Positions 7,829-64,000 of a stretch of 64,000 nt of DNA are shown one piece after another. This DNA is from Richelia sinica FACHB-800. GTDB taxonomy: Bacteria > Cyanobacteriota > Cyanobacteriia > Cyanobacteriales > Nostocaceae. The DNA is taken from NCBI RefSeq assembly GCF_014698825.1, contig NZ_JACJTT010000026.1, forward strand, positions 1 to 64,000. Direction: 5' to 3'. A program made the position numbers and the translations under genes. Position 1 is the stretch's first letter, and every line of letters begins with the position of its first letter. The notes below the pieces were generated by a model. The model saw nothing but the letters and a program-made list of their open reading frames with translations, made no database searches and was not told the origin of the DNA.

Positions 7829-9259
7829 ATGACACTACAAAGCTTTGGTGTGATTGGATTAGCCGTTATGGGCGAAAACATTGCTCTAAACGTTGAGCGT
7901 AATGGCTTCCCAATTGCAGTGTACAACCGCTCTCGCGAGAAAACCGATGCCTTTATGGCCCAAAGGGCCCCAGGACGGAACGTCAAAGCAGCCTTTACCC
8001 TGGAAGAGTTTGTCGCTTCACTAGAACGTCCCCGCAAAATTTTGGTGATGGTACAAGCTGGTAAACCAGTTGATGCGGTAATTCAGCAGTTAAAGCCTTT
8101 GCTGGAAGAAGGCGATATTATTATCGATGGTGGTAACTCTTGGTTTGAAGATACCGAAAGACGTACTCAGGAGTTAGAACCAACTGGTTTACGTTATATC
8201 GGTATGGGTGTCAGTGGTGGTGAAGAAGGGGCGCTAAATGGCCCTTCATTGATGCCTGGTGGTACAAAGAGTTCCTATGAGTATTTATCTCCCATTTTCA
8301 ACAAAATCGCTGCTCAAGTCGATGACGGCCCCTGTGTAACCTATATTGGCCCCGGTGGTTCTGGTCACTACGTGAAAATGGTACACAACGGCATTGAGTA
8401 TGGCGACATGCAATTAATTGCTGAAGCTTACGATTTGCTCAAAAATATCGGTGGTTTGAGTGCTGCACAGCTACATGAAGTTTTTGCAGAGTGGAATACA
8501 ACCGATGAACTCAATTCATTTTTGATTGAGATTACAGCCAATATTTTCCCCTACGTTGACCCAGAAACCAAGATTCCTTTGGTTGATTTAATTGTTGACG
8601 CTGCGGGACAAAAAGGAACAGGTCGTTGGACTGTACAAACTGCTTTGGAGTTAGGCGTTGCTATTCCTACAATTACTGCTGCTGTGAATTCTCGGATTAT
8701 CTCTTCAATTAGAGATGAACGGATTGCTGCTTCTAAACAATTAACTGGGCCTGTACCTAATAAATTTAAAGACACAAGAACTTTTGTGAACATGGTGCGT
8801 GATGCGCTCTATTGTTCCAAAATCTGTTCTTATGCTCAAGGTATGGCGTTGATATCCACCGCTTCTACCACCTATAATTGGGGTCTGAATCTGGGTGAAA
8901 TGGCACGGATTTGGAAGGGTGGTTGTATTATTCGTGCTGGCTTCTTGAATAAGATTAAGAAGGCATTTGACCAAAATCCCACTTTACCTAACCTGTTGTT
9001 AGCACCTGAGTTTAAGCAAACAATTCTCGATAGACAAGCTGCTTGGCGAGAAATCATTGTCACTGCGGCCAAAACAGGTATTCCTGTTCCTGCTTTTAGT
9101 GCTTCCCTCGATTATTTCGATAGCTACCGTCGGGAACGCTTACCTCAAAACCTCACTCAAGCACAACGCGATTACTTTGGTGCTCATACTTACAAACGGA
9201 CTGATAAAGACGGAACTTTCCATACAGAATGGGTTCCCATTACCGAAGCGAAGAAGTAA
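7829..9259 (+). CDS. gnd: 6-phosphogluconate dehydrogenase, decarboxylating
   Basis: A 476-residue full-length enzyme of the oxidative pentose phosphate pathway, converting 6-phosphogluconate and NADP+ to ribulose 5-phosphate, CO2 and NADPH. Visible landmarks: the N-terminal dinucleotide-binding motif GLAVMGENIALN (about 9-20), the substrate-site motif VSGGEEGALNGPSLMPGG (about 126-143), HNGIEYGDMQ (about 182-191) and the C-terminal YFGAHTYKRTDKDGTFHTEW. In heterocyst-forming cyanobacteria this route supplies much of the reductant for nitrogen fixation. It stands alone, with an apparent terminator after it. A short tail (VPITEAKK) follows the conserved end. Confidence 0.97.
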   Translation: MTLQSFGVIGLAVMGENIALNVERNGFPIAVYNRSREKTDAFMAQRAPGRNVKAAFTLEEFVASLERPRKILVMVQAGKPVDAVIQQLKPLLEEGDIIIDGGNSWFEDTERRTQELEPTGLRYIGMGVSGGEEGALNGPSLMPGGTKSSYEYLSPIFNKIAAQVDDGPCVTYIGPGGSGHYVKMVHNGIEYGDMQLIAEAYDLLKNIGGLSAAQLHEVFAEWNTTDELNSFLIEITANIFPYVDPETKIPLVDLIVDAAGQKGTGRWTVQTALELGVAIPTITAAVNSRIISSIRDERIAASKQLTGPVPNKFKDTRTFVNMVRDALYCSKICSYAQGMALISTASTTYNWGLNLGEMARIWKGGCIIRAGFLNKIKKAFDQNPTLPNLLLAPEFKQTILDRQAAWREIIVTAAKTGIPVPAFSASLDYFDSYRRERLPQNLTQAQRDYFGAHTYKRTDKDGTFHTEWVPITEAKK

Positions 9260-10350: not shown

Positions 10351-11374
10351 AATACATACTCTGGCAAAGGAATATCTTATAGTTTCTCCCCCTGGTGGCA
10401 GGAGTTTCGCTGTGTGTGGGTAACACTATATTCAATCTACCGCGTTTGATTAGGGGCAGTTAGCGATCGCTAGGGGGATTTCTCGCGTTGATAACCGTAC
10501 CGCGAAACCACTGCAAAATCCCCTAACTTTGGAATCAATTAATGATTTATCTCCGTGATTGTTACCTCTACGACTGGCAAAATGTCGGGATTCAGTCATA
10601 GAGATGAAGATGAAATTATTTTAATTATTAATTATCTTTGTAGATTTTTTCCCGGATTGATCAAAAATGTTGAGTTAATTATAACTAGAAGGATTTAAGT
10701 TATTTCTCAGTAAACTTACTGTAGAAATCACAACCAATGCCTAAGTTTATCCATCCGGTTAAATCACAATTCATACTCTTGTAGGTGAGATGTTTTAAAC
10801 TCATTATTCACCCACAGAAATGGCTGATATTGATTCCTTCAGGGATAGCTAATCTTAACCATGATTTGCAGAATTTTATATCTGAGACATATTTATTTAC
10901 CAACTGATACACACTGGTAAAAATTTTATTGTTGTTGCAGAGTAAAATATATTACAAAAACACATTAACCATGACGATATTTTGGCATTTTGGCACACAA
11001 AATCAACAGATTTGGGATAATATATGGTTATGGGTAAGAAAAAGTTGTGATTTTGCCATCAGCGTTATCTATCAAAATAACAACAGAGCCATTGGCTAAT
11101 TGCCACAAGACTTTTCCGTCAGCTTCCAAGTCAGCATATACTATTGCAAATAGCTAGATTTAAAATCAATTCAATTGTGAATTGATGGATTTATTGTTAA
11201 TCAAAAAAAACAAATTTAATTATCAGAGATATTTACTTATAATCCTTTTTACTTGAAGTTTTACATCTTCAAGACTATTGTTTTTAGATTTTTTAGATAA
11301 AAGCCAATTTCCATAAATGTATGAACTTAATTCGCAATTAAAAACATAAATTAGCTAATTTAGCAAACTCAATC
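10351..11374. other. 1-kb AT-rich spacer with a protein-coding fragment
   Basis: Long spacer between a leftward and a rightward gene. It contains one HIP1 site near 10463 and, at 11028-11153 on the minus strand, a short stretch that translates like real protein (described separately). Apart from that I see no gene, RNA structure or insertion-sequence end. Much of it could be promoter for the divergent neighbours or decayed sequence. Confidence 0.45.
11028..11153 (-). pseudogene. Possible protein-coding remnant (C-terminal fragment)
   Basis: On the minus strand 41 codons run from just after an in-frame TAG to a TAA. They read LFAIVYADLEADGKVLWQL and then ANGSVVILIDNADGKITTF, with SYP at the end. 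The composition, with the repeated (E/N)ADGK pattern, looks like genuine beta-rich protein rather than chance. There is no ATG, GTG or plausible start with a ribosome site, and the sequence upstream does not look coding, so this is best seen as the remaining C-terminal end of a decayed gene. I do not recognise the family. Confidence 0.35.
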
Positions 11375-61326: not shown

Positions 61327-61513
61327 CTTTTATTGGGAGCATCCCGATTTCGCAAAAATAACCGCAGCAACACCAAAAACTCTCTTCTTCCTTCTTACCT
61401 ATGCCTTCGGCACGCTACGCGAACGTGTCCTTCGCTCCTTCGTGGTTCGTTCATTTCACGTCTTGAACTCAAGCAAAAAATAAATTTACACATTTGGGAT
61501 GCTCCCCTTTTAT
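61327..61513. mobile_element. MITE-like element, 172 bp, with terminal inverted repeats and target duplication
   Basis: GGGAGCATCCC at 61335-61345 and its exact complement GGGATGCTCCC at 61496-61506 bound a 172-bp segment. It is flanked by a 7-bp direct repeat CTTTTAT (61327-61333 and 61507-61513; the eighth base differs, T/C). Inside is a GC-rich Nostoc-type palindrome fragment (CCTTCGGCACGCTACGCGAA, 61411-61430). There is no transposase. The ~8-bp duplication would suit an IS1-like mobilising transposase, but that link is inferred. Confidence 0.82.
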
Positions 61514-61585: not shown

Positions 61586-62404
61586 CTACAATTTAGGAGA
61601 ATATAGACTTAAAGCTTCTTCATAGGAAATTTTTGTAAATATTTTTAATTTACCATTGACTGTAGCATCATAAATTTGACGATTAGCTCTATTATAATGA
61701 AATTTAGCAAGATGATAGGAAAGCTCGGATGCTTCTAGGTCAGGAAGATGCCATTGTTGATTACAAAAATAATTAGGAGCAAAATGGTTAGGGTCTTCTC
61801 CTTGTAAAATCTGTTGTTCATTAGGTTGACCTTTAGCTATAAAATTGTGATCTACTCCAATCAAAAAAACTTTGCTAAAGCCCATATAAAATGCTATTTG
61901 CATAGCCACATAAGTAACGGTGTGACCTTCACAAATTATTTCTAGAGGATTAGAACTAAATTTATATGAACCTCCAGTTAGAATATAATAAATGTGGTCA
62001 AGAGGACGGATTGATGTACGTGCAGGTATATAGGATAAGAAAGATGGACATTGTAAAGCTTCAAATTCTGAGACGCTTTGTTCTATCACTAAAGGGTTAA
62101 CTGCAACATGATAACTGAGATTGAGATCAACTTTATCAAACATTAAATAAATTTTATTTAACCCAAAGGTGTGATAATTTTTCAGAGGAGACAGATCCAT
62201 ATTGTTTAAAGATGGACCGTTACCTATAATAAAGCAGCTTTCTCCTTTATGAATATCTTTGAATTCGGCTATTTTTTTTCCAAATCTAAAATACCATTGT
62301 TGGTAAATTTTATTATCGTAATATTTCAAGTAAGCATCAATATCATTTTTTATGGGTTTAAGGGCTGTTTTTAAGGAATTAATCAGCATTTTGTTGATTC
62401 TCAT
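61586..62404 (-). CDS. DUF115 / MptE-like protein
   Basis: A 272-residue protein with the DUF115 pattern: GESCFIIGNGPSLNNMDLSP (about 54-73), FGLNKIYLMF, EGHTVTYVAMQIAFYMGFSK (about 165-184) and VFLIGVDHNF. The family includes the archaeal 6-hydroxymethylpterin diphosphokinase MptE and Maf-type proteins involved in glycosylation of flagellin or surface polysaccharides. In this location a sugar-nucleotide or glycosyl-transfer role is more likely than folate synthesis, but no substrate can be named. It lies 23 bp downstream of the SDR gene. Confidence 0.75.
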   Translation of the reverse strand: MRINKMLINSLKTALKPIKNDIDAYLKYYDNKIYQQWYFRFGKKIAEFKDIHKGESCFIIGNGPSLNNMDLSPLKNYHTFGLNKIYLMFDKVDLNLSYHVAVNPLVIEQSVSEFEALQCPSFLSYIPARTSIRPLDHIYYILTGGSYKFSSNPLEIICEGHTVTYVAMQIAFYMGFSKVFLIGVDHNFIAKGQPNEQQILQGEDPNHFAPNYFCNQQWHLPDLEASELSYHLAKFHYNRANRQIYDATVNGKLKIFTKISYEEALSLYSPKL

Positions 62405-62427
62405 TCTGTGCTAAGTCTGGCGGTAGA

Positions 62428-63150
62428 TCAACCATCAACAACGATTGATTGACCTGTCATGAAAGAAGATTGATTATTATCAGCTAAAAATAGGATTGCT
62501 TGAGCAATTTCTTGAGGTTTACCAATCTTTCCTATTACAGTTTTTTGGGCTAAGTTTTGTTTCAATTGATTGAGGTTTGCTCCCGAAAGATGTCCTCTCA
62601 TTAAACCTGCATCCAGCATGGCAGTATCTACCGCTCCTGGCAAAATGGCATTAACTCTTATTTTATCTTTAGCCCATTCTATGGGTAAAGCACGGGTGAA
62701 AGCAACTAATCCTCCTTTACTAGCTGCATAAGCAGCAATATTAACTGAAGTTACGATCGCATGAACTGAGCTAACATTAACCATACTTCCTTGAGTCTTT
62801 CGGAGCAAAGGATAGGCTGATTGAGATAATAAAAAAGCAGAACGAAGGTTAATTGACATAATTGAATCCCATTCTCCTATTTCCGTTTCTAAGACTGGCT
62901 TACAAATTGAAATAGCAGCGTTATTAATTAGGGTATCTAATTGTCCCTCTTTTTGATGTACTTCCTCAACAATTTGAGCCACTGCTTGATCATCGGAGAT
63001 ATCTGCACAAATATAATGACTTATACTGTCAAGTTTCAAGTCAAGTTCACGATCTACTCCTATGGTACACCAGCCTTTAGCCTGAAACAGTTCTGCTGTG
63101 GCTTTACCAATACCACCAGCTACTCCTGTAATTAAAGCCACTTTTGTCAT
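62428..63150 (-). CDS. Short-chain dehydrogenase/reductase (SDR)
   Basis: A 240-residue classical SDR: nucleotide-binding TGVAGGIGKATAE (about 8-20), NNAAIS, catalytic S127/S128 in NVSSVHAI and Y141-x3-K145 in YAASKGG. Ends SFMTGQSIVVDG, only one residue short of the usual VDGG. It probably acts on a sugar or nucleotide-sugar in polysaccharide synthesis; NAD(P) preference is not clear. Its ATG overlaps the end of the (frame-corrected) GT2 remnant by 4 bp, showing that the two were once translated together. Confidence 0.88.
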   Translation of the reverse strand: MTKVALITGVAGGIGKATAELFQAKGWCTIGVDRELDLKLDSISHYICADISDDQAVAQIVEEVHQKEGQLDTLINNAAISICKPVLETEIGEWDSIMSINLRSAFLLSQSAYPLLRKTQGSMVNVSSVHAIVTSVNIAAYAASKGGLVAFTRALPIEWAKDKIRVNAILPGAVDTAMLDAGLMRGHLSGANLNQLKQNLAQKTVIGKIGKPQEIAQAILFLADNNQSSFMTGQSIVVDG

Positions 63151-63382
63151 TTTTTGTCCCCTATAGTAGCTTGTTTTAAATCTCTGACTAAATTATCTAT
63201 AGCCATTTGATTTACTTTTAAAACTGCTTCTATGGAAATGGTTGCATGGTTGCATCTGTTGAACCCGAATCAACTACAATGATTTCTACATCCTTAATAG
63301 TTTGTTGAATGATACCACTCAATAACCGCCCAATATGTTCTTCTTCATTGTAACAACGAATAATAATTGATATTGTAGGCAT
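63147..63382 (-). pseudogene. Truncated, frameshifted GT2 glycosyltransferase remnant
   Basis: The ATG at 63382 opens MPTISIIIRCYNEEEHIGRL and IVVDSGSTDAT, the conserved N-terminus of a GT2 enzyme. The frame stops after about 48 residues at a TAG. At 63238-63253 (plus strand) the 8-mer ATGGTTGC is tandemly duplicated; removing one copy restores the frame as DATISIEAVLKVNQMAIDNL and on to GDKK, ending in a TGA that overlaps the SDR start (ATGA). Even repaired it would be only 75 residues, so most of the catalytic domain had already been deleted, or the gene is a GT2-to-other fusion. It begins one base after the FkbM stop. Confidence 0.8.
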
Positions 63383-63383
63383 T

Positions 63384-64000
63384 TTATTGTTTGTCAAGGA
63401 TTACTGATTTGACTAAATTGTATAATTGTTTAGCTCCGGGAATTTTTTTGGCCAAGTTTCTAAGATCAGCTTGTTGTTCCGCTTTTTTTAATTGTTTTAG
63501 GTATTTCTCAAGAGTTATAGAAAATTTCTCTTGATCTGAATTAGGAACAAAAATTAAGTTTCCCCAAGCTGGTTCATGATCTAAGGGATAGGGAACACAT
63601 TGAATCCATAAATGAGGTGGAGTGGCCACCCCTTCTCTACCATACTCTTTTATATCTTCCCATTCCGACACAAATGCAGTATATCCATAGTCTTTCATAT
63701 AACAAACAACATCGTGATGAGTATAACCAAAACTGGGCTTAGTTCTTTCATCCATAAACTCGGTCATTATAAGTTCAGGTTGATATTTTACAAAGTCAAA
63801 ACTCTTCAATGCCAAAAAATCAGCCCCCTCTATATCAATTTTTAGCAAAGTGACAGAGGCTATTTGTAGTTCTATTAGGACATCATCTAACCTTACTGTT
63901 TCTACTTCATAGGCAAGTTTATGAGTTTTATGCCAAGATGTTAGTGAATGAATGCCATAATGTTCATCACTGACATAAAAGGGAACTTTTGCGCCCGTTA
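63384..64000 (-). CDS. FkbM-family methyltransferase (5' part outside window)
   Basis: Partial gene, with 205 complete codons visible, cut at the right edge and read leftwards. The reading frame continues unbroken to base 64000 beyond an internal TTG: VPFYVSDEHYGIHSLTSWHK, YEVETVRLDDVLIELQI, then SVTLLKIDIEGADFLALKS, which is the FkbM SAM-binding/D-I-E-G motif. The end has a charged helical tail (EKYLKQLKKAEQQADLRNLA). FkbM enzymes methylate sugar or other hydroxyl groups; in a polysaccharide locus an O-methylation of a glycan is likely. One base separates its stop from the GT2 remnant's start. Confidence 0.85.
   Translation of the reverse strand, partial: TGAKVPFYVSDEHYGIHSLTSWHKTHKLAYEVETVRLDDVLIELQIASVTLLKIDIEGADFLALKSFDFVKYQPELIMTEFMDERTKPSFGYTHHDVVCYMKDYGYTAFVSEWEDIKEYGREGVATPPHLWIQCVPYPLDHEPAWGNLIFVPNSDQEKFSITLEKYLKQLKKAEQQADLRNLAKKIPGAKQLYNLVKSVILDKQ

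Follow-up and report, generated by a model that had tools for sequence, protein, structure and literature searches.

Gene content of the locus

The window, that is, the whole 64,000-nucleotide stretch of Richelia sinica FACHB-800 DNA that was analysed, carries near its right end part of a variable surface-polysaccharide cluster, in which all the genes discussed here are read from the minus strand. The first of these encodes an FkbM methyltransferase (63384..64000; PF05050), which continues past the window edge and is 277 aa long in locus L014. It lies directly 5' of the remnant of a GT2 glycosyltransferase gene (63230..63382). The first-pass annotation had described the GT2 start as intact, and this holds: the ATG at 63382 is found one base past the FkbM stop, and the stub reads MPTISIIIRCYNEEEHIGRLLSGIIQQTIKDVEIIVVDSGSTDAT. 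The stub comprises 153 bases, or 145 (~48 codons) without 8 extra bases, and covers positions 1-41 of the 168 in the Pfam Glycos_transf_2 profile.

The extra bases form a tandem doubling at 63238..63255 (ATGGTTGC on the plus strand, GCAACCAT on the minus strand), a perfect period-8 run of 18 bp. Beyond the doubled 8-mer, the GT2 reading frame meets an in-frame stop, TAG at 63232-63230. The GT2 sequence goes on for 8 bp past the doubling before it reaches a seam at 63229..63233, where the GT2 side runs to CCATAG (last base 63230) and the other side, which goes on with AAGCAG from 63229, belongs to a gene for a D-2-hydroxyacid dehydrogenase (DH). Only the 3' end of the DH gene is present (63147..63231), amounting to its last 83 bases, or 85 if a shared AG is counted. 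This AG, at 63231-63230, fits both the GT2 and the DH sides, and the exact sequence shared at the seam may be only 2 bp.

The frame beyond the doubling leads to a TGA at 63149-63147, overlapping the ATG of an SDR oxidoreductase gene (62428..63150). With a single copy of the 8-mer, one register of 228 bases (76 codons including the stop) would specify a 75-residue chimera that contains neither the GT2 body nor most of DH. The last gene of the set encodes an MptE-like, DUF115-type protein (61586..62404; Pfam PF01973); the family assignments of SDR and MptE-like were made on the window copies. A scan of 62400-63500 returned 5 promoter-like sites, compared with 3.5 expected, and no terminator-like sites.

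Comparison with the cluster of Anabaena sp. FACHB-1237

The DNA search gave a split match to the genome of Anabaena sp. FACHB-1237 (G034): window 63001-63235 corresponds to C54:7900-8134 and window 63246-63361 to C54:11215-11330, two parts on the same strand that lie 3.1 kb apart. The gene order in this locus (L015) is FkbM, GT2 (329 aa), cyclase (212 aa), a CMP-sugar synthetase-like cytidylyltransferase (225 aa), DH (320 aa), SDR (249 aa), and MptE-like. The cyclase belongs to the Pfam family Cyclase, with arylformamidase as its top NCBIfam model, and the top NCBIfam model for the cytidylyltransferase is PseF; both NCBIfam scores are below the cut-off. The set on contig58 of Anabaena sp. FACHB-1237 (L030) is 100% identical to L015 in 7/7 compared proteins.

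With the L015 proteins as queries, GT2 matched C19:63242-63376 with residues 6-50 of 329 (89% protein identity), and the match ended at residue 50, in agreement with the earlier statement that the GT2 gene is broken and its body missing; no match of the GT2 C-terminus to the 3' part of the window sequence was reported. Instead, DH matched C19:63150-63242 with residues 290-320 of 320 (77% protein identity). In L015 coordinates, DH occupies 9008..8046 and SDR starts at 8049, and the overlap of DH stop and SDR start is ATGA there too. In L015 terms, the window retains the GT2 gene as far as nucleotide 154 of 990 together with the last 83 of the 963 of DH, and L015 8129-11206, which is 3,078 bp spanning two complete genes and the greater part of two more, has no counterpart in the window. 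The Anabaena set thus resembles the window in both ends and in the downstream SDR and MptE-like genes, with protein identities from 77% (DH tail) through 89% (SDR) to 91% (MptE-like). However, the window lacks the middle 3,078 bp, has an SDR that is 9 codons shorter, and carries a different FkbM upstream of GT2, since the two FkbM proteins are only ~38% alike.

We conclude that window 63147-63382 is very probably the scar of a ~3-kb multi-gene deletion that fused the start of GT2 to the tail of DH. Its two ends derive from separate genes that lie close together in the relative, and the intervening block is absent elsewhere in the genome. The ancestor would have carried, on the minus strand, GT2, cyclase, CMP-sugar synthetase, 2-hydroxyacid dehydrogenase, SDR, and MptE-like. 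With the cyclase and CMP-sugar synthetase genes wholly lost and only short pieces of GT2 and DH left, the copy of the pathway in the window would be dead as a set. Comparison with L015 establishes the joining itself; for the molecular route, we infer a single illegitimate recombination or replication slip over ~3.1 kb. The sequence shared by the deletion ends was read by eye over ~70 bases per end, and such a short overlap, possibly only 2 bp, favours illegitimate recombination or slippage. A repeat search of window 62400-63500, a stretch without the deleted ends, detected direct repeats of 13-18 bp, all imperfect and all away from the seam.

Multi-gene deletion scars, seen as chimeric gene remnants, occur in bacterial polysaccharide clusters. 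The window is like them in joining two truncated genes with little shared sequence at the seam, and unlike them in carrying a perfect 8-bp doubling 8 bp away from that seam.

The differences that separate the remnants from L015 are mostly synonymous. For the GT2 stub we counted 20.5 synonymous and 4.5 nonsynonymous differences, and for the DH tail 8 synonymous and 5 nonsynonymous codons, two of these nonsynonymous ones being located at the seam or on its GT2 side. Measured against the divergence, the break therefore appears young. In the GT2 stub, however, synonymous divergence is near saturation (20.5 of 28.5 sites over 43 codons), far above that of SDR (42 of 164). This argues against a uniform history, and judged from sequence divergence the GT2 end may have a recombination history of its own. 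In SDR, a TGA at 62428-62430 replaces the glycine codon at residue 241 of the L015 protein, removing the last 9 residues; the tail STARLSTE is still in frame behind it. The dN/dS values relative to L015 are 0.18 for SDR and 0.30 for MptE-like, which are averages over the whole divergence and no proof of present function.

Distribution of the gene set

In a DNA search of 60 genomes, our own included, matches at E 0.001 or better were present in 28, i.e., in 27 of 59 relatives; apart from those in G034 and G040, they were 25-57 bases long. Among 217 family genomes, again including our own, 13 gave matches with E values of 1e-6 or better; of the best few candidates scored per genome, only those in G034 matched both sides at length. 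The CMP-sugar synthetase was detected in 6/217 of these genomes at E 1e-30 or better, counting a divergent copy on contig C2 of our own genome, and the set is therefore patchy in the family.

In the G040 locus (L016), the order from GT2 through cyclase, CMP-sugar synthetase, and DH to SDR is that of L015, except that an extra, putatively FkbM-like gene separates DH from SDR; the MptE-like part belongs to a 1104-aa protein. CMP-sugar synthetase, DH, SDR, and MptE-like occur together in 5/15 SDR loci drawn from genome_contigs (L030-L034; 4/14 without L030), which come from Anabaena, a Crocosphaera MAG, and three putative Chloroflexi. Four of these five contain GT2, the exception being L033, and two contain the cyclase, which was not seen in L032-L034; L031 carries both genes on the opposite strand. 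In the other 10 of the 15 SDR loci, some of which have short flanks, the SDR gave the only match at E 1e-8.

The set is co-located in L016 and, in an arrangement that varies in order, spacing, and content, in L031-L034, so the long form probably came first. The gene set is not rigid among L031-L034, and this counts against the deletion reading, as do the unlike FkbM proteins upstream of GT2 and the high synonymous divergence of the GT2 stub. Our picture of the intact state in the lineage of the window is inferred from another genus, Anabaena.

A recurrent set of GT2, in some cases cyclase, a PseF-like CMP transferase, 2-hydroxyacid DH, SDR, and MptE-like was observed in cyanobacteria and putative Chloroflexi (L015 6442-11360; L016 6763-15298; L029 9723-16241; L031-L034). 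It is perhaps a CMP-sugar route not yet described; the parts of the sources returned by a literature search held nothing on such a route. The Pfam NeuB profile gave above-cut-off but weak hits of 34-42 bits in our own genome (G000), G034, and G040, and G096 and G101 each had one strong NeuB (~289 bits) plus a weak one. The lost set was probably not fed by a NeuB enzyme. In L033, NeuB lies in the same locus as the recurrent set.

In our own genome, the best full-length matches to the L015 proteins were 45% for DH, 47% for CMP-sugar synthetase, 29% for cyclase, and 43% for GT2. Neither the removed cyclase nor the removed CMP-sugar synthetase has a close copy in the assembly, and therefore the block was not simply moved to another contig. 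The GT2, CMP transferase, and DH matches, together with an SDR (38%), stand in a row on contig C2, followed by putative FkbM-like and flippase-like genes and an MptE-like gene whose product is 41% identical to the L015 protein. This set has no cyclase; the best cyclase match is on contig C65. The divergent C2 set may make the loss tolerable. For the window, the deletion would mean that one more gene set has been lost from a variable surface-polysaccharide cluster, with a divergent set persisting elsewhere in the genome.

Origin of the 8-bp doubling and alternative explanations

The first-pass annotation had also reported an exact 8-bp doubling that shifts the frame, and the run starting at 63238 bears this out. 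By comparison, the doubling is a true insertion, because the counterpart GT2 gene of L015 carries one copy at this site. The single copy reads ATGCAACCAT, with AT flanks on both sides that would allow a slip adding 8 bp: the stretch would already have had AT around six other bases. The doubling, which breaks the reading frame, would have arisen in the same event as the deletion or later. The window contains 6 perfect period-8 doublings (at 10979, 16856, 19480, 19579, 30201, and 63238), compared with a mean of 1.15 and a maximum of 3 in 40 first-order Markov simulations. Thus, a doubling as such is not unusual there; the one at 63238 is the longest run among the six.

One could imagine that the deletion and the doubling came from one template-switching event and that the remaining SDR and MptE-like proteins are used with precursors made by the C2 set. 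We consider this combination unlikely; if true, two surface-sugar pathways would have merged across the genome.

Several IS families make 8-bp target duplications, and the doubling could be the target-site duplication left behind by an insertion sequence that was excised and also caused the deletion, particularly as a MITE-like repeat lies 1.7 kb away (61335-61506). However, nothing lies between the two copies, the 8 bp of GT2 beyond the doubling would demand an extra clean excision, and the AT flanks of the L015 single copy already permit a slip. This origin is quite improbable. We give still less weight to an assembly artefact, in which the block exists in the organism and was dropped from the assembly. 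The assembly is a draft of 79 contigs, and the seam is ~5.5 kb from the contig end. Nevertheless, the assembly is rated 99.99% complete, no other contig was found to hold the block, and decay is also indicated by the doubling and the SDR stop. An artefact is thus very unlikely.

The original reading of the locus was that of one GT2 gene with an internal deletion and an 8-bp slippage, whose own 3' end overlaps SDR. Its observation that removal of one copy brings the frame to an ATGA overlap with SDR is correct, but the overlap is no internal proof for GT2, since it is the DH/SDR junction of L015, and the tail shows homology to the C-terminus of DH (residues 290-320 of 320, 77%), with no reported match of the GT2 C-terminus there; we find this reading hardly credible. 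An in-frame tail and an ATGA overlap looked like one broken gene, and a plausible reading is corrected by the finding that the tail comes from another gene. That both remnants share a frame when one copy is removed is a one-in-three coincidence.

The suggestion that gain or loss of the 8-bp unit might switch the gene on and off has next to no chance of being right: the tandem doubling is exact and in principle reversible, but there are two copies only, neither register holds the GT2 body or most of DH, and at most a switch would toggle the 75-residue chimera and its coupling to SDR. In phase-variable (contingency) loci with short repeats, loss of a short tandem unit changes the frame. The window is like such loci in having a short tandem unit whose loss would alter the frame, and unlike them in having only two copies and in encoding a complete enzyme in neither register. 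We accordingly rejected on/off switching of GT2, as neither one copy nor two yields a complete enzyme. The first pass had named a conserved short protein with the doubled sequence in relatives as grounds for a real small gene; this was not supported, as no seam-spanning match at E 1e-6 or better was found in the 216 other family genomes, among the best few candidates scored per genome. The locus shows ordinary decay of a variable polysaccharide locus, with no sign of a switch or a small gene.

The MITE-like element at 61335-61506 has inverted ends (GGGAGCATCCC). Our own genome gave 34 matches to it, of which four besides the window copy are nearly full-length (83-86% identity). On either side of the element lie short stretches that match L015 5785-5843 and 5871-5901, and it may therefore be located within what is left of a GT4-like gene, a putative assignment taken from an L015 ORF.
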